DNA of 64,000 nucleotides, from positions 620,001 to 684,000 of the forward strand of contig NZ_JABTEZ010000004.1 of NCBI RefSeq assembly GCF_015711605.1. Reading direction: 5' to 3'. The first letter of the stretch is position 1. Every line of letters starts with the position of its first letter. The stretch is from Planomonospora sp. ID67723. GTDB lineage: Bacteria > Actinomycetota > Actinomycetes > Streptosporangiales > Streptosporangiaceae. Position numbers and translations under genes: made by a program. The notes under the pieces are model-generated. The model had not been told where the DNA came from and searched no databases. It saw only the letters and a program-made list of their open reading frames with translations. Shown here in pieces: positions 35,417 to 47,446 of the stretch.

Positions 35417-36964
35417 TCAGCGGACCGGCACCAGGTCCGGGCCGACGACGTGGCCCTGGTGCGGGTGGGGGGCGTTCTGGTCGTGGCGGAAGTGCCCGGC
35501 GTACCAGACGACGACGTTGGTGCCGTTGACGCTCTCGCCGTCGACGAACCGGTCGAGCATCGCCCGGTTGTCGTCGTCGGGGTTGCCGTCGTACAGCTCG
35601 CTCGCCCGGCGGCGCAGGAACCACAGGTCGCTGATGCCGTAGGGGTCGGCGGTGTTGTCGTGCTCCCCGGGCACGATCCGGTAGCCGCGGCCGCTGGACT
35701 TGTCGGTGACCTGCCAGAACCGGGCAGGGGGGCGGCGCTTGCGGGAGGTCTCGCGCACGATCGTCGTCCCGACGGGGGCGTCGGAGGTGCCGTCGAACTG
35801 CTCGATCACGTCGTTGTCGGAACCCTCGACGTCGAAGTCGAAGCGCCAGTAGACGTGATGGCGGTGGCGCATGCAGGTGCGCGGGTTGCGCACCCCGGCG
35901 AAGCCGAAGCGCGGGCGGACCATGCCGTCGTCGGCCAGGCGCCACTCCGAGACGTACCGATACCAGCCGGCCGAGATCTCGCTGATGATCCGCAGCTCGC
36001 CGCCGGCGTCGTGGAAGGCCACGCCCTGGAAGTTGCCCGCGTCGTTGTCGGGCCGCTCCAGGATGGTCTTCGGCGCCCGGTCGCAGATCCGCCAGCCCCA
36101 GCCGACCGGGTCGGTGCCCGTCGCCGAGAAACGGGTCTCCTGGTTCTGCCAGTCGCGGAAGGTGACGCCGTCCTCCTCGTACTGGACGTTGAGGATCGGC
36201 ACGTGCGCCTGGCGGAAGACCAGCCTGCCCCGGTGGCGGACCTCGCGCAGCTCCACCCCCGAGCCGTCACCGGGATCCTGCGGCGCCGAGGCGCGGGGCC
36301 GTACCACGATCAGGTTCCACAGCTCGACGCCGTCGTCGACCACGCGCAGCCGTACCGCGTCCGGGCCGCCCCGGTCGCGCAGGCTCTCCACCGGCACGGG
36401 CAGATGCGACTCGCAGTCACCGGGGTGCATGGCGACGCTGACCCCGGCCGGGGACCAGTCGACGGTGCGCGCGGTGACGTCCACGGCGACGATGCGGTGC
36501 TTGACGTCCTCGCCGGGTGTGTAGACACCCAGGGTGGGGCGGCGCACGGTGGTGCCGTCGGGGTTCTCGAGATCGGCCAGGGGCGGCATCGGCTGGTAGA
36601 CGACCACGTCGTCGCCGGCGGGGAAGCGCGCGTCCGCCCGGAGGATCCCCGCCGCCGCCTGCAGCTCGGCGGGGCGCGGGTTGGGCCGGTAGCCGCTGGG
36701 CAGAACCTCGGCCCGTTCGGGCCGGTCGACGGTGCCGCGCAGTTCCACCCCCCGGTTGGACACCGGGTCGAACACGCTCGCCCGGAACGGCGCCCGCTCA
36801 CCCGGTTGGCGGCTCAGCGCGACGGCCTGACCCAGGATGAGCCGGTCGGCATCGGCGGTCTCCAGGTGCGCCAGCACGGCCGGGTGGGCCGAGGCGACCT
36901 CCCGTACCCGCTCGGCGGTCAGTCCCGCCTGCGCGACCGCCTCGATGATCACCTGTCTGGTCAT
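35417..36964 (-). CDS. Divergent copper-amine-oxidase-like protein
   Basis: 515 residues from ATG 36964 (GGGGAG seven bases upstream). Features of the copper amine oxidase catalytic domain can be followed in order: RHRGRLVFRQAHVPILNVQY, the strand pair around the cofactor Tyr (ISAGWYRYVSEWRLADDGM), a His-x-His motif (367 and 369, in CMRHRHHVYWRFDFDVEG), and the C-terminal NGTNVVVWYAGHFRH with His 491, 494, 500, 502 and 505. In true enzymes the cofactor motif is Asn-Tyr-Asp/Glu; here it is Trp-Tyr-Arg (334-336), and the loop between Tyr and His-x-His is about 17 residues shorter. Amine oxidase activity is therefore doubtful. No signal peptide is seen. It is a single gene with its own terminator. 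Confidence 0.6.
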   Translation of the reverse strand: MTRQVIIEAVAQAGLTAERVREVASAHPAVLAHLETADADRLILGQAVALSRQPGERAPFRASVFDPVSNRGVELRGTVDRPERAEVLPSGYRPNPRPAELQAAAGILRADARFPAGDDVVVYQPMPPLADLENPDGTTVRRPTLGVYTPGEDVKHRIVAVDVTARTVDWSPAGVSVAMHPGDCESHLPVPVESLRDRGGPDAVRLRVVDDGVELWNLIVVRPRASAPQDPGDGSGVELREVRHRGRLVFRQAHVPILNVQYEEDGVTFRDWQNQETRFSATGTDPVGWGWRICDRAPKTILERPDNDAGNFQGVAFHDAGGELRIISEISAGWYRYVSEWRLADDGMVRPRFGFAGVRNPRTCMRHRHHVYWRFDFDVEGSDNDVIEQFDGTSDAPVGTTIVRETSRKRRPPARFWQVTDKSSGRGYRIVPGEHDNTADPYGISDLWFLRRRASELYDGNPDDDNRAMLDRFVDGESVNGTNVVVWYAGHFRHDQNAPHPHQGHVVGPDLVPVR

Positions 36965-37134
36965 GTCGATCTCCCCGTTCACGTGTCGATGGCGCGCCGT
37001 CCCCGGAACCTTCGGCGCACCCCCGTTCCTATCCCGCGGGTGGGATGTTGGGAAGATCCGGAATCATCCGGGTTTGTGGCCGTGTTCGGCGCTCCTGCCG
37101 CCCTCCTCCCGAGCGGAGGGCCTGCCCGTCGCCG

Positions 37135-38259
37135 TCACGCGGGGGGCAGGAACTCCAGGTCGCGGGCACCGGTGAGGGTCAGCAGGCGGTCCGCCTCCTG
37201 GCTCAGCTCCGTTTCGGCCCGTGCGGTGAGCGGGACGAACGGCTGGACGACCAGGCGGTCCGCGGTGAGTTTCCAGGTGCCGTGGACGGTGCCGTCGACG
37301 AGGACGGTCGGCGCGACCATCGAGCCGACGCACACGCGCCTGCGGTGCTCGTCGGTCATGATCCGGGTGCGGTCGGCGTAGGCGACCATCAGGTTGTCGA
37401 ACTCGGGCAGGAACCGCGCCGGGGCCGGGGTGTCCGGGTCGGGCGGCGGCGGGGCGTCCGGCAGGTCGAACACCTCCCGGCCGTTCTCGTCGCGGTAGAC
37501 CCGCAGGTCCATGCGGGCCACGACCTCACGCAGGCGGGTCAGGCCCGACCAGGCCTGCACGTCCATGACCGCGGCCGGGCCGAAGGCGGCCAGGTAGCGG
37601 TGGACCAGCCGCTCGACCGGCGGCCCGGCCGCAACGGACCCGGAGGCGCCGGCCCCGTCCTCCGGGCAGGCCGGCTCCACGGGCCCGCCCAGCCACTCAT
37701 CGGCCAGGGCGAACGGGGTGGCGCCGCCCCTGCCCCAGGTGCCCTGCGGCGGGACGTGAACCAGCTGCAGCATGCTCTGGGCCGACCAGCCCAGCGCGTC
37801 GGCGGGCACGCCGGGCCAGCGCTCGGCCAGCAGCCGGCCCAGCTGCGGGCGGGTCAGGACGCGCCCGGCCAGCAGTTCCCGGCCCGCGGCGGCCAGTTCC
37901 TCCAGATCCACCCCCGCGGTCACCCGGCCGAAGGAGGCCTGGCGACCCCTGGCCAGGACGGGCTGCATGAGCGGGCGCAGCCACCGGTAGTCGGCCGCAG
38001 CGACCAGGTGCAGGGTGCCGCGCAGCACAGAGGCGCGTACGGCCTGCCTGCCGTACAGCAGCGCGGTCAGGTCGGCGACGGTGAAGCGCGCCAGCCGGGC
38101 GGCCAGTCCGAGGTAGGGGGCGTTGGCCGACTGGGCCTGCAGGCCGGCCAGGTGCTCGACGGCCGCCAACGGGGACAGCTCGCTGCGGCGCAGCAGGAGC
38201 TGCCGGTCCAGGGTGATCCGGTTGAGCGCCGTCGTGGTCAGGGTGCGCGGAGTGCTCAT
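37135..38259 (-). CDS. HTH_42 winged-helix protein, AlkZ/YcaQ-like DNA glycosylase
   Basis: 374 residues from ATG 38259. It belongs to the HTH_42 family of tandem winged helices, which includes DNA glycosylases AlkZ and YcaQ that unhook interstrand crosslinks. The family catalytic motif Gln-x-Gln appears as AGLQAQSANAPYLGLAAR (about 38-55). Later landmarks are RASVLRGTLHLVAAADYRWL, the FLPEFDNLMVAYADRTRI element and a C-terminal beta domain (VLVDGTVHGTWKL). In antibiotic producers such proteins often give self-resistance to DNA-alkylating products, but no biosynthetic genes are near. A role in repair of alkylated bases is the best inference. Confidence 0.8.
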   Translation of the reverse strand: MSTPRTLTTTALNRITLDRQLLLRRSELSPLAAVEHLAGLQAQSANAPYLGLAARLARFTVADLTALLYGRQAVRASVLRGTLHLVAAADYRWLRPLMQPVLARGRQASFGRVTAGVDLEELAAAGRELLAGRVLTRPQLGRLLAERWPGVPADALGWSAQSMLQLVHVPPQGTWGRGGATPFALADEWLGGPVEPACPEDGAGASGSVAAGPPVERLVHRYLAAFGPAAVMDVQAWSGLTRLREVVARMDLRVYRDENGREVFDLPDAPPPPDPDTPAPARFLPEFDNLMVAYADRTRIMTDEHRRRVCVGSMVAPTVLVDGTVHGTWKLTADRLVVQPFVPLTARAETELSQEADRLLTLTGARDLEFLPPA

Positions 38260-38307
38260 GACTGCGACGATGCCACCCGATGCGGAAAGTTTCGTTCCGC
38301 TTTCTGC

Positions 38308-39981
38308 TCAGGGCTCCGGCCGGGAATGGGGCAGCAGGAGGGTGAACGTCGAGCCCTGGCCCGGGACGCTGGTGGCGGTGATGGTGCCGCCGTGGGCCTC
38401 GGCGATGGCCTTGGCGATGCTCAGCCCCAGCCCGATGCCCTGGATGGCCGCCGCGGAGGCGGAGGGGGTGCGGTAGAAGCGGTCGAACACGCGCGGCAGC
38501 TCGTCGGCGCCGAGGCCGGCCCCGGCGTCGCTGACGGCGATCGCCACTCCGTCATCGGTGGCCGAGGCCGACACGGTGATCGGGGTGCCGGTCGTGGAGA
38601 ACTTGACCGCGTTCGACAGCAGCGCGTTCACCGCCCGCACCAGCAGGCCCCGGTCGGCGTGCACCGGGGGAAGAACGGCATCGACGTCCACCTGAACGCG
38701 ATGGTCACAGGAGCGGGTCTCGGCGGAGGCCAGTTGCACCGCCTCGTCGATGATCTCGCCCACTCCCACCGGGGCGGGGTTGACGGTCAGGTTGCCGCCG
38801 GCGACGGTGTTGACCGCCAGCAGGTCCTCGACCAGCCTCTGCAGCCGCATGGCGTTGTGGGTCATGGCGCGCAGCATCCGCATGCGCTGGCCGGCGGGCA
38901 GGTCGTCGTTGCCGAAAGTGAGGAGTTCCAGGTAGCCGAGGATGCTCACCAGGGGGGTGCGCAGCTCGTGGCCGACCGTCTCGATGAACTTGTCCTTGGT
39001 CCGATCCAGCTCCTTGAGCCGCGCCACGGCGGCCTGCTCCTGGGCGTAGGCCTCACGCAGCGCCCGTTCGGCCCGGCGGCGGTCGGTGATGTCGTGGACG
39101 AACGCGTTGAAGGTCCACGTCTCGGCCTCGCACGTGGCCCAGATCACCATCTCGATCGGGAACTCGCTGCCGTCGGAGCGCAGCGCCTTCAGCTCCAGCC
39201 GCCGCCCCAGCACCTGCGACCTGCCCGTGGCCAGGAACTGGGCCCGGTCCTCCTCGTAGGCGTCCCGGTAGCGGGCCGGCATGATCGTCTGGTCCATCGG
39301 CCTGCCGAGGGCCTGCTGGCGCGTCAGGCCGAACATGCGCTCGGCCGTGGCGTTCCAGCCGTTGATGCGCCCCTGCGCGTCGACGGACACGAACGCCTCC
39401 ACCGAGGTCTCGATGACCTGCTCCAGCCGGTGCCGGGCGAGTTCCGCCTCCCGGCGGGCATGCTGGCGATCGACCACCCGGCCCATCTGGTGGCCCAGAC
39501 TGGCCATCACCCGCATCAGCGACTCGTCCGGCGCGACCGCCTCGCGGGAGAAGAACTCCAGCACCGCCGTCACACCCACTGTGGTCACCACCGGCAGTGC
39601 GAACGTCGCCCTCACCCCCACCTCCTCGCCCGGCCGGGCGCGTGTGAACAGCGGGTCGCGGGTGACGTCGCGCGACCACACCGGCTCGCCCGTGGCGGCG
39701 GCCCGGCCGATGATGTCGGCTCCCGGGGGAAGCCGGGCGGCCGTCGTCACCTCGTACAGCAGCGGGAACTCCTTGACCGCGCCCGTCCATGCACCCGACG
39801 AGACGAAGCAGCCGCTCGTGCCGTCCGGCACCCATATGTGGCCCAGCGGCCAGCCGATCGCCTTGCGCACCGCACGCAACGTCGCACGCGCCGCCGACTC
39901 CAGATCGTCGCTGGCGCTGAGCGCCGCGGTGACACCGTCCAGCAGCGCCACCAGTGCCGCTTCCCGTTCTCCGGCAGGCAC
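38308..39981 (-). CDS. Soluble sensor histidine kinase (GAF-PAS-HisKA-HATPase)
   Basis: 557 residues from GTG 39981, with GAGGGGAC upstream. GAF domain (about 20-165, starting near GWPLGHIWVPDGTSG), PAS (about 180-300, with INGWNATAERMFGLTRQQAL), HisKA with His in FIETVGHELRTPLVSILGYL, and HATPase_c with [24 protein letters not shown] and IQGIGLGLSIAKAIAEAHGG. There are no membrane segments. Catalytic boxes look intact. There is no response regulator next to it. Related in plan to the longer kinase at 7372-9999. Confidence 0.9.
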   Translation of the reverse strand: MPAGEREAALVALLDGVTAALSASDDLESAARATLRAVRKAIGWPLGHIWVPDGTSGCFVSSGAWTGAVKEFPLLYEVTTAARLPPGADIIGRAAATGEPVWSRDVTRDPLFTRARPGEEVGVRATFALPVVTTVGVTAVLEFFSREAVAPDESLMRVMASLGHQMGRVVDRQHARREAELARHRLEQVIETSVEAFVSVDAQGRINGWNATAERMFGLTRQQALGRPMDQTIMPARYRDAYEEDRAQFLATGRSQVLGRRLELKALRSDGSEFPIEMVIWATCEAETWTFNAFVHDITDRRRAERALREAYAQEQAAVARLKELDRTKDKFIETVGHELRTPLVSILGYLELLTFGNDDLPAGQRMRMLRAMTHNAMRLQRLVEDLLAVNTVAGGNLTVNPAPVGVGEIIDEAVQLASAETRSCDHRVQVDVDAVLPPVHADRGLLVRAVNALLSNAVKFSTTGTPITVSASATDDGVAIAVSDAGAGLGADELPRVFDRFYRTPSASAAAIQGIGLGLSIAKAIAEAHGGTITATSVPGQGSTFTLLLPHSRPEP

Positions 39982-40342: not shown

Positions 40343-42070
40343 ATGAACGAACACCTTGAGACGCCTCTCCCGCCCCGACGACCCGACCGGTCCCACCCCG
40401 TGAGGCGAGGCCGGGCGCGCCTCGCCTGGGCGGCGGTGGCGGTGCTGGCGGCCGGCGGGGTGATCAACCCGCAGCCGGCGGCGCTGGCGGACACCGGTGC
40501 GACCGCATCGGCAAACGAGCCGATGAATGGGCCGATGAGTGGGTACGCGGCGGACGACGGGCGAGACGCGCGCCTGGCCCGGTTCGACCGGCAGCCGATC
40601 ACCTGGCACAGCTGCCGGCGCAACAGGAACGACGACATCGGCAAGACCCTGGACGCCGCCGGGGCCCGGTGCGCGGAGGTCACCGTCCCGGTGGACTACA
40701 GCGCGCCGGACGGCCGCACGACCACGGTGGCGATCTCCCGGCGCAAGGCCTCCGACCGCGCCCGCCGGCTGGGCACCCTGATGATCAATACGGGCGGGCC
40801 GAGTGAATCGCTCTCCGGTGTGACCTGGGTGCTGCAGGGACTGCCGCCGTTCGCCGTCGGCTCACCCCAGCTCGCCAAACGCTACGACCTGGTCGGGATG
40901 GATCCCCGGTTCATGGGACGCAACCCCCCGCTGGCGTGCGGCTGGCCCACCGGGCTCGCCGAGAAGGCCGCGTTCGTCGGGCTGGATCGGGCCAGCTTCG
41001 ACCGCAGCGTGGCCCTGACCAGGAAACTGGCCGCCCGCTGCGCCGGCCAGAAAGACCTGCTGCCGCATGTCTCCACCCGCAACATCGCCCGGGACCTGGA
41101 CGTGATCCGCGCCGTACTCGGCGAGCGGAAGGTCTCCTACCTGGGCTGGTCCTACGGCGGCTACCTGGGCGGGGTCTACCTGCAGATGTTCCCCGACCGC
41201 GTCGACCGGATGCTTCTGGACAGCCCTCCCGATCCCGACACCTACGGGGCCGACGGGGCCCGCGACAACGCGCCCGCGCTCGCCGCGGAACAGCGGAACT
41301 GGGCGGCCTGGGCGGCCCGGCACGACGACCGCTATCACCTGGGCGCCACCACCGCGCAGGTCCTGGCCTCGATGGACGTCATCCGGCGGGTCGCCGACCG
41401 CGGCCGCCCGGTACGCATCGGCCGCCATCGGGCCGATCTCAACCTGGTACGCAGGCTCGCCCTCGGCACCGACGCCGAGTGGACGTACGCGCGCTGGAGC
41501 GACATGATGCGCCTGCTCTACGACGCCGCCCGCGGCGTCAAGGTCACTCCCACCCCCGCCCAGGAGGAGGTCCTGGCCATCCTGTCCTCCACCGAGGTGA
41601 ACACCGAGGCCGCCGCCTCGGCGGCGAGCAGGTGCGCGGACCGGGCGTCCTCCTCCCGTGACCCCGAGGTCTACTACCGCGACATCCAGGCCCACCGCGC
41701 CGGCGAGCCGTTCTTCGGGCCGCCCAACCGCAACGTCACCCCGTGCACGTTCTGGCCCGCCGAGCCCGCCGAGCCCCCCACCACGATCCGCAACGGCCGC
41801 CCCGTCCTGATCGTCGGCGCCAGCGGCGACCCCGGCACCCCCTACGCGGGCCAGCTGGTCATGCACCGGGCTCTGACCGGCTCCCGCATGCTCACCCTGC
41901 GCGGCGCCTACCGCCACGGGGTGACCTTCTTCGAAGGCAACCCCTGCGTCGATCGCGTGGCCAACCGCTACCTGCTCACCGGTGTCCTGCCCGGTACCGA
42001 CATCACCTGCAGCAGAGTCAGCCCCTACCCCGGCGCGTCCGGCTCCGGCGAGACCCCCACGAAGGACTGA
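40343..42070 (+). CDS. Secreted tripeptidyl-aminopeptidase-like alpha/beta hydrolase
   Basis: 575 residues from ATG 40343. The N-terminus is an export signal with a twin-Arg-like basic region (RRGRARLAWAAVAVLAAGG, cleaved near ALA-D). The catalytic fold has an oxyanion strand MINTGGPSESLS, the nucleophile elbow YLGWSYGGYLGGVYLQ, then the TAP-like C-terminal domain with the acid in VGASGDPGTPYAGQL and the His in LRGAYRHGVTFFEGNPCVD. Such extracellular peptidases of actinomycetes remove tripeptides from protein N-termini. It is a single gene, 77 bases before the sensor kinase start, possibly a separate unit. Confidence 0.9.
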   Translation: MNEHLETPLPPRRPDRSHPVRRGRARLAWAAVAVLAAGGVINPQPAALADTGATASANEPMNGPMSGYAADDGRDARLARFDRQPITWHSCRRNRNDDIGKTLDAAGARCAEVTVPVDYSAPDGRTTTVAISRRKASDRARRLGTLMINTGGPSESLSGVTWVLQGLPPFAVGSPQLAKRYDLVGMDPRFMGRNPPLACGWPTGLAEKAAFVGLDRASFDRSVALTRKLAARCAGQKDLLPHVSTRNIARDLDVIRAVLGERKVSYLGWSYGGYLGGVYLQMFPDRVDRMLLDSPPDPDTYGADGARDNAPALAAEQRNWAAWAARHDDRYHLGATTAQVLASMDVIRRVADRGRPVRIGRHRADLNLVRRLALGTDAEWTYARWSDMMRLLYDAARGVKVTPTPAQEEVLAILSSTEVNTEAAASAASRCADRASSSRDPEVYYRDIQAHRAGEPFFGPPNRNVTPCTFWPAEPAEPPTTIRNGRPVLIVGASGDPGTPYAGQLVMHRALTGSRMLTLRGAYRHGVTFFEGNPCVDRVANRYLLTGVLPGTDITCSRVSPYPGASGSGETPTKD

Positions 42071-42147: not shown

Positions 42148-44253
42148 ATGGCACACGTGTCGAACGCCGTGCCGCCCCCGGGTTCCGGGGGCGGCACGGT
42201 CGATCATCCGTGGTTGCTGCCCGGTGCCGTCACCCCCTGCGCCGGGGACCGGGAGGGCGTGTCCCGCAGGAGGCGGAGCGTCCGCGACTGGCTCGTGGAC
42301 GGCCTGTTCTTCGTGCTCGCCGTCGCCGGGGTGGTCGTGCAGATCGAGACATCCGCCCCGGCGATCCGGCCGTCCGGGCCGCCGGCCTTCTGCGGCGAAG
42401 CACTCGCCGGGATGGGCTGCCTGGCCCTGTGGCTGCGGCGGCGCTGGCCGGTGGGGGTGGCCCTGGCATGCGCCCCGCTCGGCGTCCTCGTCCTGCCCAC
42501 GGTGATCACCTCCACCACCCTGGCGGTGTTCACCGTGGCGGTGCACCGGCCCGCCCGCGTGGCGCTCCTGGTCGCCGCGCCGGTCCTGGCCACGGCACCG
42601 CTGTACTTCGCGGTGCACCCGGACCCGGCTCGCCAGCCGCCGTCGGAGAACATCATATTGTCGATCATGTCCACCGTGGCGGTGCTGGGCTGGGGGATGC
42701 TGGTGCGCTCCCGCCGGCAGGTGCTCGCCTCGCTGTGGGAACGCGCGCAACGGGCCGAGACCGACCAGCGGCTCCGGGCGGAGCAGGCCCGGCGGGCGGA
42801 GCGCGCCCGCATCGCCCGGGAGATGCACGACGTCCTGGCCCACCGGATCTCCCTGGTCAGCCTGCACGCCGGGGCCCTGGAGCACGGCACCGACGTCACG
42901 GCGGAGGAGACCTCCCGCGCCGCCGGGGTGATCCGCGCCGCCGCCCACCAGGCGCTGCAGGAACTGCGCGAGGTCATCGGCCTGCTCCGCGACCGGCCGG
43001 GCGCGCCCGGCAGCGGCCCACCGCCGCGCCCGGTGCCGGGCGACGCCCTGGAGCCGGCCGTCCAGGACCCCCGGGACCGGGACGGCGGCACCCACCGGGC
43101 GATGTGGACGATCCCCGCGTGGGCCGTCGACGGGATGCTCTTCGCGGCCTCGGCCTCGGTGGTGGCCCTGTACGGCCTCGTCCCGGGCTTCACCTGGGCG
43201 TCAGAGCCGCTGCGCCGGGCCGACCTGGTCTTCGGGGCGCTGGCCTGCCTGGCGCTGTGGCTGCGGCGGCGCTGGCCGGTGGGGGTGGCCCTGGCCTGCG
43301 CCCCGCTCGGCGTGTTCGTCTTCTCCGCCGGTTTGGTCGCCGCCCTGGCCGCGCTGTTCACCGTCGCGGTGCGCCGGAGGCTGGGTACGGCACTGCTGCT
43401 CAGCGCCTTCGCCCTGGCCCCGGCGCCTCTGTACTTCCTGGCCAGGGCCGATCAGGAACCCGATTCCGGGGAACTGACCGCCGTACCGGCCGGGATCATG
43501 TTCGTGGCGGCGGTGCTGGGGTGGGGGATGCTGGTGCGCTCCCGCCGGCAACTGATCGATTCGCTGCGCGAACGCGCCGCCCACGCCCATCGTGACCAGC
43601 GGCTCCGGATGGAGCAGGCCCGGCGGGCGGAGCGCGCCCGCATCGCCCGGGAGATGCACGACGTCCTGGCCCACCGGATCTCCCTGGTCAGCCTGCACGC
43701 CGGGGCCCTGGAGCACGGCACCGACGTCACGGCGGAGGAGACCTCCCGCGCCGCCGGGGTGATCCGCGCCAACGCCCGCCAGGCGCTGCGGGAGCTACGC
43801 GAGGTCATCGAACTGCTCCACGAAGGCCCCACCGTCCCCGGCCGCCCGGAACGTCCGCAACCCTGCCTGGCCGACGTCCCCGAACTCGTCGCCCAGAGCG
43901 CCACCGCCGGCAACTCCGTGCACTACACCACCACCGTCACCGACCCGCAGGCCATACCGGCAGTCACCGGCCGGACGATCTACCGCCTCATCCAGGAGGC
44001 GCTGACCAACGTCCGCAAGCACGCCCCCGGCGCCGAGGTCCGCCTCGCTCTCACCGCTTCCCCCGGCTGGCTCCACCTCGAGGTCAGCAACCCCCTCCCG
44101 GCCACCCCGCCGACCGGTTCCCCCGTGCCCGGGTCCGGGACCGGCCTGATCGGCCTGGCCGAACGCGTCGAGCTCGCCGACGGGTACCTCACCCACGGCC
44201 CCGCCCCCGACGGCACCTTCCGCCTCGAAACCTGGATACCGTGCCCGATATGA
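42148..44253 (+). CDS. NarL-type sensor kinase with internally duplicated sensor and HisKA_3 half
   Basis: 701 residues if begun at ATG 42148; the start is uncertain. The chain reads: membrane domain (SVRDWLVDGLFFVLAVAGVV to MSTVAVLGWGMLVRSRR), HisKA_3 (ERARIAREMHDVLAHRISLV), a Pro-rich linker, then the same again (MWTIPAWAVDGMLFAASASV to FVAAVLGWGMLVRSRRQ), a second HisKA_3 with the same His motif, and one HATPase_c (IYRLIQEALTNVRKHAPG, GTGLIGLAERVELADG). The first copy has no HATPase. The two HisKA_3 coding regions include 159 identical bases (42781-42939, 43612-43770). No stop or frameshift separates the copies; ATG 43102 could start a normal-length kinase. The response regulator follows with a four-base overlap. 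Confidence 0.9.
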   Translation: MAHVSNAVPPPGSGGGTVDHPWLLPGAVTPCAGDREGVSRRRRSVRDWLVDGLFFVLAVAGVVVQIETSAPAIRPSGPPAFCGEALAGMGCLALWLRRRWPVGVALACAPLGVLVLPTVITSTTLAVFTVAVHRPARVALLVAAPVLATAPLYFAVHPDPARQPPSENIILSIMSTVAVLGWGMLVRSRRQVLASLWERAQRAETDQRLRAEQARRAERARIAREMHDVLAHRISLVSLHAGALEHGTDVTAEETSRAAGVIRAAAHQALQELREVIGLLRDRPGAPGSGPPPRPVPGDALEPAVQDPRDRDGGTHRAMWTIPAWAVDGMLFAASASVVALYGLVPGFTWASEPLRRADLVFGALACLALWLRRRWPVGVALACAPLGVFVFSAGLVAALAALFTVAVRRRLGTALLLSAFALAPAPLYFLARADQEPDSGELTAVPAGIMFVAAVLGWGMLVRSRRQLIDSLRERAAHAHRDQRLRMEQARRAERARIAREMHDVLAHRISLVSLHAGALEHGTDVTAEETSRAAGVIRANARQALRELREVIELLHEGPTVPGRPERPQPCLADVPELVAQSATAGNSVHYTTTVTDPQAIPAVTGRTIYRLIQEALTNVRKHAPGAEVRLALTASPGWLHLEVSNPLPATPPTGSPVPGSGTGLIGLAERVELADGYLTHGPAPDGTFRLETWIPCPI
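42781..42939 (+). repeat. 159-bp exact direct repeat, copy 1 (HisKA_3 coding)
   Basis: Identical base for base to 43612-43770, 831 bases downstream. Identity also extends, with scattered mismatches, over the preceding linker. A second conserved block lies around 42421-42484 (matching 43249-43312 at a spacing of 828 bases). Confidence 0.9.
43612..43770 (+). repeat. 159-bp exact direct repeat, copy 2 (HisKA_3 coding)
   Basis: Second copy of the block at 42781-42939. It codes for the phosphoacceptor helix (REMHDVLAHRISLVSLHAGA). The membrane parts between the copies have diverged much more, so the identity here is either recent or kept by gene conversion. Confidence 0.9.
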
Positions 44254-44924
44254 CTGACCCCACCGACGATGGAGCGATCCGGCTGGCGATCGTGGACGAC
44301 GACGCGCTGGTCCGTGCCGGTCTGGCCATGTTGCTTCGCGGAGCCGACGGGATCGAGGTGGTCGCCCAGGCCACGGACGGCGACGAGGTCGAGGCGATGG
44401 TGGACGCACACCGGCCCGACGTCATTCTGATGGACATCCGGATGCCGCGGATGGACGGTCTGGCCGCGACCCAGCGGGTGCGGGCCCGCCCGCCGGCCCC
44501 CCAAGTGATCGTGCTGACCACCTTCGACACCGATGAATACGTCCTGCACGCGTTGCGCGCCGGGGCGAGCGGGTTCCTGCTCAAGGACACCCCGCCGCCC
44601 GAGATCATCCAGGCGGTCCGGAAGGTGGCCGCCGGGGAGGCGACGCTGTCGCCGTCCGTCACCCGGCGGTTGATCGACCACCTCGTCGACCCGATCGCCG
44701 ACACCCGGCGTGAGCGCGCCCAGCGGCTGCTCGACCGCCTCACCGAGCGCGAACTGGCGGTGGCGGTGGCGATCGGGCGGGGCTGCTCGAACGCCGAGAT
44801 CAGCGCTGAGCTGTTCCTGAGCGTGGCCACGATCAAGGCGTACGTGTCCCGGACGCTGACCAGGCTCGAACTGAACAACCGGGTGCAGATCGCTCTCCTG
44901 GTCCACGACGCCGACCTGGTCTGA
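44250..44924 (+). CDS. NarL/FixJ-family response regulator
   Basis: 224 residues from ATG 44250, overlapping the kinase stop by four bases (ATGA); GTG 44241 is an alternative. Receiver: AIVDDDALVRAGLAMLL, phosphoacceptor Asp in VILMDIRMPRMDG, VIVLTTFDTDEYV, and Lys in GFLLKDTPPPEIIQAVRKVA. The LuxR-type helix-turn-helix ends the protein (LTERELAVAVAIGRGCSNAE, LFLSVATIKAYVSRTLTRL). It is the partner of the duplicated kinase. Targets are unknown; such pairs often control neighbouring transporters or hydrolases, which here would point to the secreted peptidase upstream. Confidence 0.93.
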   Translation: MTDPTDDGAIRLAIVDDDALVRAGLAMLLRGADGIEVVAQATDGDEVEAMVDAHRPDVILMDIRMPRMDGLAATQRVRARPPAPQVIVLTTFDTDEYVLHALRAGASGFLLKDTPPPEIIQAVRKVAAGEATLSPSVTRRLIDHLVDPIADTRRERAQRLLDRLTERELAVAVAIGRGCSNAEISAELFLSVATIKAYVSRTLTRLELNNRVQIALLVHDADLV

Positions 44925-45211: not shown

Positions 45212-47446
45212 GTGGAGCCCGCAGACAGGGGACAGGGTGTCAAGGATGGTTCCCTCGCTGTAAGTTTTTCTGCGGTGCTGGAGCGCATCACCTACGCCAA
45301 CGAGGAGACCGGCTACACCATCGCCCGGGTGGCCACCGAGCGCTCGGGCGCCGAGCTGCTGACCGTGGTGGGGCCGCTGCTGGGCGCGCAGGTCGGCGAG
45401 TCGCTGCGGCTGACCGGGCGGTGGGGTTCGCACCCGCGCTACGGCAGGCAGTTCGAGGTGTGGTCCTACACCACGGTGCTGCCCGCCACCGTCCAGGGCA
45501 TCCAGCGCTACCTCGGCTCGGGGCTCATCAAGGGCATCGGGCCGAAGATGGCCGAGCGGATCGTCGACCACTTCGGCACCGACACCCTGGAGATCATCGA
45601 GACCAGCCCGGAGCGGCTGGTCGAGGTCCCGGGGCTCGGCCCGAAACGGACCAAGATGATCGCGGCGGCCTGGGAGGAACAGAAGATCATCAAAGAGGTG
45701 ATGATCTTCCTGCAGGGGGTCGGGGTCTCCACCTCGATCGCGGTGCGGATCTTCAAGCAGTACGGCGACAACTCCATCTCGGTCGTCAGGAGCGAGCCGT
45801 ACCGGCTGGCCGACGACGTGTGGGGCATCGGCTTCAAGACCGCCGACACCATCGCCCAGGCCGTCGGCATCCCGCACGACAGTCCCGAGCGGGTCAAGGC
45901 GGGCCTGCGCTACACCCTGTCCCAGGGCGCCGACGACGGCCACTGCTACCTGCCCGCGCCCAACCTGGTCGCCGACGCGGTGAAGATCCTGCAGGTACCG
46001 GCCGAGCTGGTCGCCTCGTGCCTGGAGGAGCTCGTCGCGGAGGAGGGCGTGGTCCGTGAGGAGCTCCCGGTCGGCGACAACACCATCCCCGCGATCTACC
46101 TGCTCCCCTTCCACCGTGCCGAGCTGTCGCTGGCCGGCTCGCTGCGCGCCCTGCTCACCTCCTCGCACGACCGGCTCGGCGCCTTCCGGACGGTCGACTG
46201 GGAGGTGGCGCTGGAGTGGCTGCGCGGCCGGACCGGCTCCGACCTGGCCGCCGAGCAGGCGCAGGCCGTGCGGCTGGCGCTGAGCGAGAAGGTCGCGGTG
46301 CTGACCGGCGGGCCCGGCTGCGGCAAGAGCTTCACGGTGCGCTCCATCGTCACCCTGGCCCGCGCCAAGAAGGCCAAGGTCATCCTGGCCGCCCCCACCG
46401 GCCGGGCGGCGAAGCGGCTGTCGGAGCTGACCGGCCACGAGGCCACCACCGTGCACCGGCTGCTGCAGCTGCGCCCCGGCGGCGACGCCACCTTCGACCG
46501 CGACAACCCCCTCGACGCCGACCTGGTCGTGGTCGACGAGGCCTCCATGCTGGACCTGCTGCTGGCCAACAAGCTGGTCAAGGCCGTCGCTCCCGGCACC
46601 CACCTGCTGTTCGTCGGCGACGTCGACCAGCTGCCCTCGGTCGGCGCGGGCGAGGTCCTGCGCGACCTGCTGGCCGCCGAGGAGGAGATCCCCCGGGTAC
46701 GGCTGACGCACATCTTCCGCCAGGCCCAGGAGTCCGGCGTGGTCGTCAACGCCCACCGGGTCAACACCGGCCTGCCCCCGGCACTGGAGGGCATGAAGGA
46801 CTTCTTCCTGTTCCCGTGCGAGGAGCCCGAGGAGATCGCCGCGCTCACCGTCGATGTGGTCGCCAGCCGCATCCCCCGCAGGTTCGGCCTCAACGCCCGC
46901 CGCGACGTACAGGTGCTGGCGCCGATGCACCGGGGCGCGGCCGGGGCGGGCAACCTCAACACCATCCTGCAGGAGGCGCTCACCCCCGCCCGCGAGGGCA
47001 TGCCCGAACGCCGCTACGGCGGGCGGGTGTTCCGGATCGGCGACAAGGTCACCCAGCTGCGCAACAACTACGACAAGGGCGCCGCCGGAGTGTTCAACGG
47101 CACCGTCGGCGTGGTGGTGGACATCAAGCCCGACGACCACAAGCTGGTCGTGCGCACCGACGAGGACGAGGACGTCGAATACTCCTTCGACGAACTGGAC
47201 GAGCTGGCCCACGCCTACGCCGTGTCGATCCACCGCTCCCAGGGCAGCGAGTATCCGGCGGTGGTGATCCCGCTGGCCACGAGCGCGTGGATGATGCTGC
47301 AGCGCAACCTGCTCTACACCGCGATCACCCGCGCCAAGAAGCTCGTCGTCATCGTCGGCTCACGCCGGGCGCTGGCGCAGGCGGTGCGCACCCGCGGCGC
47401 CGGCCGCCGGCACACCAGCCTCACCCATCGCCTGCGCCAGGGCTAG
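45212..47446 (+). CDS. recD2: RecD2-type ATP-dependent DNA helicase
   Basis: 744 residues from GTG 45212. The N-terminal OB-like part (AVLERITYANEETGYTIARV) and helix-hairpin-helix units (GLIKGIGPKMAERIVDHFG, VEVPGLGPKRTKMIAAAW) precede a superfamily 1B motor: Walker A LTGGPGCGKSFTVRSIV, LAAPTGRAAKRLSELTG, Walker B LVVVDEASMLDLLL, LFVGDVDQLPSVGAGEVLRD, ending HAYAVSIHRSQGSEYPAVVI and LYTAITRAKKLVVIVGS. This is the RecD2 plan, a 5'-3' helicase that acts without RecB or RecC in repair or fork processing. The stop codon overlaps that of the convergent regulator gene. Confidence 0.93.
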   Translation: MEPADRGQGVKDGSLAVSFSAVLERITYANEETGYTIARVATERSGAELLTVVGPLLGAQVGESLRLTGRWGSHPRYGRQFEVWSYTTVLPATVQGIQRYLGSGLIKGIGPKMAERIVDHFGTDTLEIIETSPERLVEVPGLGPKRTKMIAAAWEEQKIIKEVMIFLQGVGVSTSIAVRIFKQYGDNSISVVRSEPYRLADDVWGIGFKTADTIAQAVGIPHDSPERVKAGLRYTLSQGADDGHCYLPAPNLVADAVKILQVPAELVASCLEELVAEEGVVREELPVGDNTIPAIYLLPFHRAELSLAGSLRALLTSSHDRLGAFRTVDWEVALEWLRGRTGSDLAAEQAQAVRLALSEKVAVLTGGPGCGKSFTVRSIVTLARAKKAKVILAAPTGRAAKRLSELTGHEATTVHRLLQLRPGGDATFDRDNPLDADLVVVDEASMLDLLLANKLVKAVAPGTHLLFVGDVDQLPSVGAGEVLRDLLAAEEEIPRVRLTHIFRQAQESGVVVNAHRVNTGLPPALEGMKDFFLFPCEEPEEIAALTVDVVASRIPRRFGLNARRDVQVLAPMHRGAAGAGNLNTILQEALTPAREGMPERRYGGRVFRIGDKVTQLRNNYDKGAAGVFNGTVGVVVDIKPDDHKLVVRTDEDEDVEYSFDELDELAHAYAVSIHRSQGSEYPAVVIPLATSAWMMLQRNLLYTAITRAKKLVVIVGSRRALAQAVRTRGAGRRHTSLTHRLRQG

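Follow-up and report, generated by a model that had tools for sequence, protein, structure and literature searches.

Histidine kinases generally function as dimers, which in their active states are often asymmetric. In the phosphotransfer state described for DesK, one CA domain sits on the DHp domain of the other protomer while the second CA domain is free, and a single regulator is bound per dimer (PMC5231405). Kinases of the DesK/NarL type with a DUF7134 sensor were found in many actinomycetes in this analysis, and these relatives carry one sensor, one DHp domain, and one CA domain per chain. TodS, described as a "double sensor kinase," holds two sensor-kinase modules in one chain, and the account given of it includes PAS sensors, no membrane part, and a receiver between the two HK domains (PMC4861429). 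In the CheA3/CheA4 pair of Rhodobacter sphaeroides, as described, the phosphoacceptor and ATPase functions are not one-to-one and are split over two complexed proteins (PMC3591291).

Here, we analyze a kinase gene in a 64,000-nucleotide stretch of the Planomonospora sp. ID67723 genome (hereafter, the window). Its product is of the same kind as the DesK/NarL-type DUF7134 kinases with respect to sensor, DHp, CA, VSN variant, and the adjoining LuxR-type regulator, but its sensor and DHp domain are doubled. As far as TodS has been described in the source cited above, the two have in common a pair of sensor-kinase modules per chain, whereas the protein studied here has membrane sensors, no receiver, and one CA domain; neither PAS nor receiver was found among its Pfam matches, and its order is not the PAS-HK-REC-PAS-HK of TodS. 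The likeness to what is described of CheA3/CheA4 lies in phosphoacceptor and ATPase functions that are not one-to-one, although in our case they reside in one chain, whose second half holds both. Its parts do not lie on separate proteins, as those of a split kinase do, but are encoded by one open frame without a stop. All five solved relatives found by sequence were DesK entries, and DesK also topped a fold search. A search of open-access papers on two-HisKA_3, two-DHp, or single-chain kinases yielded no description of this layout among the entries listed.

Domain organization and gene neighborhood

The encoded chain reads sensor A, HisKA_3 A, linker, sensor B, HisKA_3 B, and HATPase_c (Table 1). 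Its start is uncertain, with the in-frame ATG 42079 and GTG 42157 as alternatives to ATG 42148. HisKA_3 was found twice by Pfam, the halves taken separately scoring 60.0 and 56.3 bits against a cut-off of 24. DUF7134 scored 39.5 bits with the whole protein and 28.9 bits with the A half; the B half alone gave 24.0 bits, below the cut-off of 27. HATPase_c was detected once, at residues 610-698, with 24.9 bits in the full protein and 26.2 bits in the B half (cut-off 26.4). This last score is marginal, yet the conserved CA residues are present, and the same holds for DUF7134 of the B half. Only matches far below the cut-offs were obtained with NCBIfam.

More specifically, the CA domain of the B half has an intact N box (QEALTNVRKH), a VSN motif, and a glycine box (GSGTGLIGL), with the N-box Asn and all four checked glycines in place; the Asn of the VSN motif is the family norm according to column counts over 149 relatives. 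The REMHDVLAH phosphoacceptor motif of HisKA_3 A is likewise intact, and the His and Asp of the HD phosphoacceptor motif occur in 151 of 151 aligned rows, A and B included. No HATPase_c was found in the A half by Pfam, so that this domain does not follow each HisKA_3, and an alignment of the halves places in the linker a short stretch resembling the start of the CA region of B. Thus, one chain carries two sensors, two complete HisKA_3 domains, and one ATPase domain, as the original prediction had held and as both Pfam and the open frame bear out. Judged by these domain matches, the protein is a HisKA_3 (NarL/DesK-type) and DUF7134 sensor kinase in all but an ATPase for each HisKA_3.

Table 1. 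Positions of the features discussed; coordinates are those of the window unless a locus or contig prefix is given
Feature	Position	Strand	Remarks
Sensor histidine kinase, 701 aa	42148..44253	+	Open frame from ATG 42148 to stop 44251-44253
Sensor A, DUF7134 membrane domain	42280..42708	+	Residues 45-187; six predicted helices
HisKA_3 A	42799..42993	+	Residues 218-282; His227; no ATPase domain next
Linker A to B	42994..43116	+	About residues 283-323; mostly low model confidence
Internal in-frame ATG, Met319	43102..43104	+	Alternative start proposed in the original prediction
Sensor B, second DUF7134 membrane domain	43117..43539	+	Residues 324-464; lower model confidence
HisKA_3 B	43630..43824	+	Residues 495-559; His504 (His186 of the B half)
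CA/HATPase_c domain	43867..44250	+	
160-nt identical block, copy A	42780..42939	+	
160-nt identical block, copy B	43611..43770	+	
Response regulator, REC and LuxR/GerE HTH	44250..44924	+	ATG overlaps the kinase stop (ATGA)
Alpha/beta hydrolase, TAP-like	40343..42070	+	Upstream neighbor; Pfam
Second fused kinase, 775 aa	L202:2355-4682, C1:481857-484181	-	Two HisKA_3 kinases in one membrane chain

The closest relatives of the response regulator in 120 genomes of the family are ~63-69% identical to it, and a regulator relative adjoins a kinase of the same subfamily in 10 of the 10 regions fetched around kinase matches. On the other side, divergent from the hydrolase gene that adjoins the double kinase, lies a 557-aa ORF (38308-39981, minus strand), which by eye resembles a cytosolic PAS-HisKA-HATPase sensor kinase.

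Coding status of the two halves

The two halves form one open frame, and no stop lies between them; a stop there was the feature that the original prediction had named as speaking against it. GC3 was 0.88-1.00 in the 13 intervals from 42193 to 44142, with 0.84 in the edge interval at 44143, which runs past the stop, and 0.74 in that at 42043, which is partly upstream of the gene. We then counted how many of the columns conserved in 90% or more of 149 relatives each half has kept. The sensor columns are kept at 12 of 12 in A and 11 of 12 in B (mean of the relatives, 11.4), and the DHp columns at 31 of 32 in A and 29 of 32 in B (mean, 30.7). For CA, the B half keeps 38 of 42 columns and the A half 4 of 42 (mean, 40.6), which agrees with the prediction of a first HisKA_3 lacking its own ATPase. 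By these sequence measures, neither half looks decayed. A loss of conserved residues from both halves, once suspected, was not borne out by this count, and a pseudogene was judged unlikely given the absence of a stop, the high GC3, and the intact motifs.

The original prediction had offered as its second reading that ATG 43102 makes a normal kinase and that the first half is a separate partner without an ATPase. The latter part fails, since no stop ends the first half, which therefore cannot be a separate protein; the former part survives to the extent that an additional 41-kDa product is possible. A chain begun at ATG 43102 would have 383 aa, a typical length for a normal kinase, and the ribosome-site energy there (-6.7) resembles the -5.6 to -7.3 obtained for the other candidate starts. 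Nevertheless, we consider it improbable that the functional product comes from ATG 43102, or that both products arise, with the first half as a fresh or decaying duplicate: the conserved columns, GC3, and lack of a stop given above argue against decay, and sensor A is too far from sensor B for a fresh duplicate.

A mosaic repeat with an identical block

The direct repeat is spaced at 828 nt where it covers the sensor and at 831 nt where it covers HisKA_3, in line with the in-frame tandem repeat of about 830 bases noted originally. The longest exact runs between the halves are 160, 41, and 29 nt; the identical block that had been given as 159 bp does exist, but it measures 160 nt. Exact runs between the A half and 149 other kinase loci reach no more than 39 nt, and the repeat is therefore not a product of chance or of ordinary family likeness. 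In the 828-nt register, homology also extends upstream of ATG 43102 (42242-42270 versus 43070-43098, 76%), although this is weak when taken alone, with a slightly different 40-nt stretch ranking third among ~6,000 offsets.

Codon usage separates the long block from the rest of the repeat. The two copies of the 160-nt block use the same codon at 53 of 53 shared residues. Outside the three blocks the figure is 47 of 62, a difference from the long block with Fisher p = 4e-5; the corresponding counts for the two short blocks are 20 of 23 and 9 of 11. Among 167 ungapped homologue matches over the same stretch (gapped or short matches were dropped, and certain genes are represented by more than one locus), the fraction of shared residues with the same codon had a median of 0.69 and a maximum of 0.84. 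Sensors A and B, on the other hand, are 39% identical over 119 columns outside the blocks. In a comparison with 149 distinct relatives from both strands, the distance between the two sensors was about that to other single kinases; ranked by closeness to sensor A, half B was 7th of 150 rows, and ranked by closeness to sensor B, half A was 3rd.

The repeat is therefore a mosaic, with DHp domains nearly identical at the DNA level and divergent sensors. The codon identity and the divergent sensors indicate that the halves split long before the block became identical, for which the simplest cause is gene conversion between the copies. The original prediction had missed this point, namely that the block is probably the footprint of later gene conversion and does not give the age of the duplication.

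A perfect repeat of 160 nt is a classical trouble spot for short reads, and an assembly artefact covering a single-copy locus had to be weighed. We regard it as extremely unlikely. The unique arms leading into and out of the repeat should force the present linear path, barring an excised circle of ~830 bp, and sensors A and B are different sequences. The genome is assembled in 9 contigs and is 99.8% complete.

Origin of the two halves

In trees with 50 relatives, the two halves grouped together with values of 85/82 for the sensor and linker columns and 89/71 for the sensor only; this support is moderate, and both halves are on long branches. A smaller set, drawn from 110 plus-strand loci, gave 94/88 with the linker, and its sensor-only tree was unresolved (AU p 0.58). 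When the halves were placed singly, A fell beside kinases of genomes G128 and G107, and B fell near kinases of Asanoa and G026, both weakly. Outside the identical block, the halves also have in common Asp206, Glu272, and Leu279, which are uncommon in the family (present in 1, 18, and 8 of 149 relatives, respectively).

We slightly favor, on these sequence data, an internal event in which an ordinary kinase had its sensor-DHp segment duplicated in tandem and in frame. Alternatively, two tandem paralogous kinase genes may have been fused by a deletion that took the ATPase part of the first gene and the start of the second, with the DHp blocks being homogenized by conversion afterward. Such a fusion would be compatible with either of the working models considered below, and it would explain why the sensors are separated by about the same distance as either is from other kinases and why A and B, placed alone, go to different, weakly supported places. 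The grouping of the halves in both full-set trees and their shared uncommon residues count against it, as does the fact that no side-by-side pair of such kinases was seen among the loci examined, many of which carry little flank. Two separate complete kinase genes in relatives had been named originally as the sign of a simple fusion, and that sign did not appear in these loci. On balance, we hold the fusion to be possible but doubtful. The duplication proposed in the original prediction is thus plausible as far as the tree grouping goes, whereas the halves separate when placed singly and a fusion is also compatible with the data.

Distribution of the double kinase and its locus

In 210 kinase loci, some of them the same place twice, 191 ORFs carried the search motif; five records contained two such motifs, and all of these were the window gene. 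Since this motif requires His, a second fused kinase of the same genome, which has lost it, was uncounted, and divergent double kinases may escape such surveys. Searching 150 genomes of the family with the full protein gave matches at E <= 1e-70 in 35 genomes (7 candidates scored per genome), among which only the gene itself matched before residue 282. The A half, used as a query against 297 genomes of the order, gave matches at E <= 1e-30 in 256 genomes (again 7 candidates scored per genome), with no second adjacent match among the matches listed, down to E ~7e-52. A pattern search of contigs returned at least 595 stretches and at least 574 relatives, from which the best 80 of 574 were kept. 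Collectively, the orthologue survey called for by the original prediction found no second case of the double kinase in the loci and genome samples searched, and the closest proteins among the matches listed are single kinases that are ~50-55% identical. G001, the only other genome of the genus sampled, has no full-length match; its best match is to a single kinase, with 54% identity across residues 353-699.

We also compared the DNA around a RecD-like gene at four loci. G111 is colinear with the window over 36000-38300 and resumes at 45272, and the 7-kb stretch with the kinase system is therefore absent in G111. G001 keeps the right flank and part of the left flank, where 53 bp match 39921-39973 and may be what is left of the gene at 38308-39981. 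G107 and G128 align on the right flank only and are uninformative. By this comparison, the kinase system is an accessory locus among the few comparable genomes.

Another fused kinase encoded by this genome

A HisKA_3 scan of the genome gave 60 matches, and inspection of their places revealed one other ORF with two HisKA_3 domains (Table 1). In its first half, Ser or Asn stands in place of the phosphoacceptor His, and the N-box Asn is also replaced, each in 4 of the 4 sequences compared. The two proteins thus differ in what their first halves have kept: the second fused kinase lacks the His and retains an ATPase-like region, whereas the double kinase retains the His and has no ATPase. From its sequence, the second fused kinase looks like a natural single-chain pseudokinase-kinase pair.

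Among 20 relatives searched, near full-length matches to the second fused kinase were found in G001 (94%), G010 (63%), and G006 (58%). Its full-length presence in three other genomes indicates that single-chain double kinases can persist in this group. By analogy, this persistence makes the single-chain reading of the double kinase more credible, though unproven.

In G009 (C44:55566-58029), two separate kinases on the same strand lie ~460 bp apart, and each is 41% identical to the second half of the second fused kinase. This pair is possibly a picture of the unfused state.

Working models of the double kinase

Structure prediction of one chain gave a mean pLDDT of 75 and a pTM of 0.48. Each half was modelled with six membrane-type helices and an 82-residue helix that continues into the first of two DHp helices; the sensor A helices span residues 45-68, 78-96, 101-114, 118-133, 136-156, and the start of 165-246. 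Residues 286-293 and 299-323 had a pLDDT under 50, and sensor B was modelled with low confidence because the relatives aligned mainly to half A.

Based on the sequence, this model, and analogy with DesK, we give about an even chance to the protein being a single-chain asymmetric kinase of the NarL/DesK type, with paired DHp hairpins and one ATPase domain serving both. The DHp hairpin would start and end on the membrane side, from where the chain would re-enter the membrane through a flexible linker of ~40 residues to form sensor B. DHp A would then pack beside DHp B, in parallel, like the halves of a normal dimer, and gene conversion may hold the two DHp domains identical, perhaps under selection for equal pairing and regulator docking. 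The single CA domain would phosphorylate one histidine, either that of its neighbor or its own, comparable to the asymmetric DesK state with one CA domain engaged; a chain with two DHp domains and one CA domain resembles, by analogy, a minimal version of that state. Whether the target would be His227 or His504 should depend on the handedness of the hairpin (PMC6798134). The phosphate would pass to the regulator encoded downstream, and two different sensors would gate one output. The fused chain could equally well form dimers or larger assemblies.

The fused chain might also dimerize in the ordinary way, DHp A with A' and DHp B with B', in which case the B half would be the working kinase and the A half would add a further sensor and helix bundle, serving to modulate the B half or to dock the regulator. 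B alone has all kinase parts at normal size, and the relatives examined are single kinases that presumably dimerize between chains, a precedent that favors this arrangement. With DHp domains that are nearly identical, however, specificity cannot prevent pairing of A with B, and the histidine and DHp domain of A are as intact as those of B, which would be unneeded if A were a mere adapter. Therefore, we rate the ordinary dimer as rather unlikely.

A more far-reaching version of the single-chain reading is that the protein is a natural, covalent, obligately asymmetric kinase that compares two signals in one molecule, at a locus that also works as a recombination switch. If this were true, an in-frame loss of 831 bp by recombination between the DHp blocks would yield a complete kinase whose only sensor is A, and a population could alternate between two-sensor and one-sensor forms. 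We consider this version highly speculative and improbable.

Significance

Within a very common enzyme family, the layout described here is a rare variant; it was seen in one genome in this study, and the mechanism proposed for it, paired DHp hairpins served by one ATPase domain, is plausible. It resembles a natural one-piece form of an enzyme whose usual working unit is a pair. With two hairpins and one ATPase domain, a chain of this natural kind would fix covalently the asymmetry of histidine kinases, and it would allow one to ask, without engineered heterodimers, which histidine is phosphorylated and whether by its own or its neighbor's ATPase domain. The same chain would make it possible to ask how two sensors feed a single output. 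In addition, the locus would offer a clear case of gene conversion acting on one protein domain while the adjacent domains diverge.
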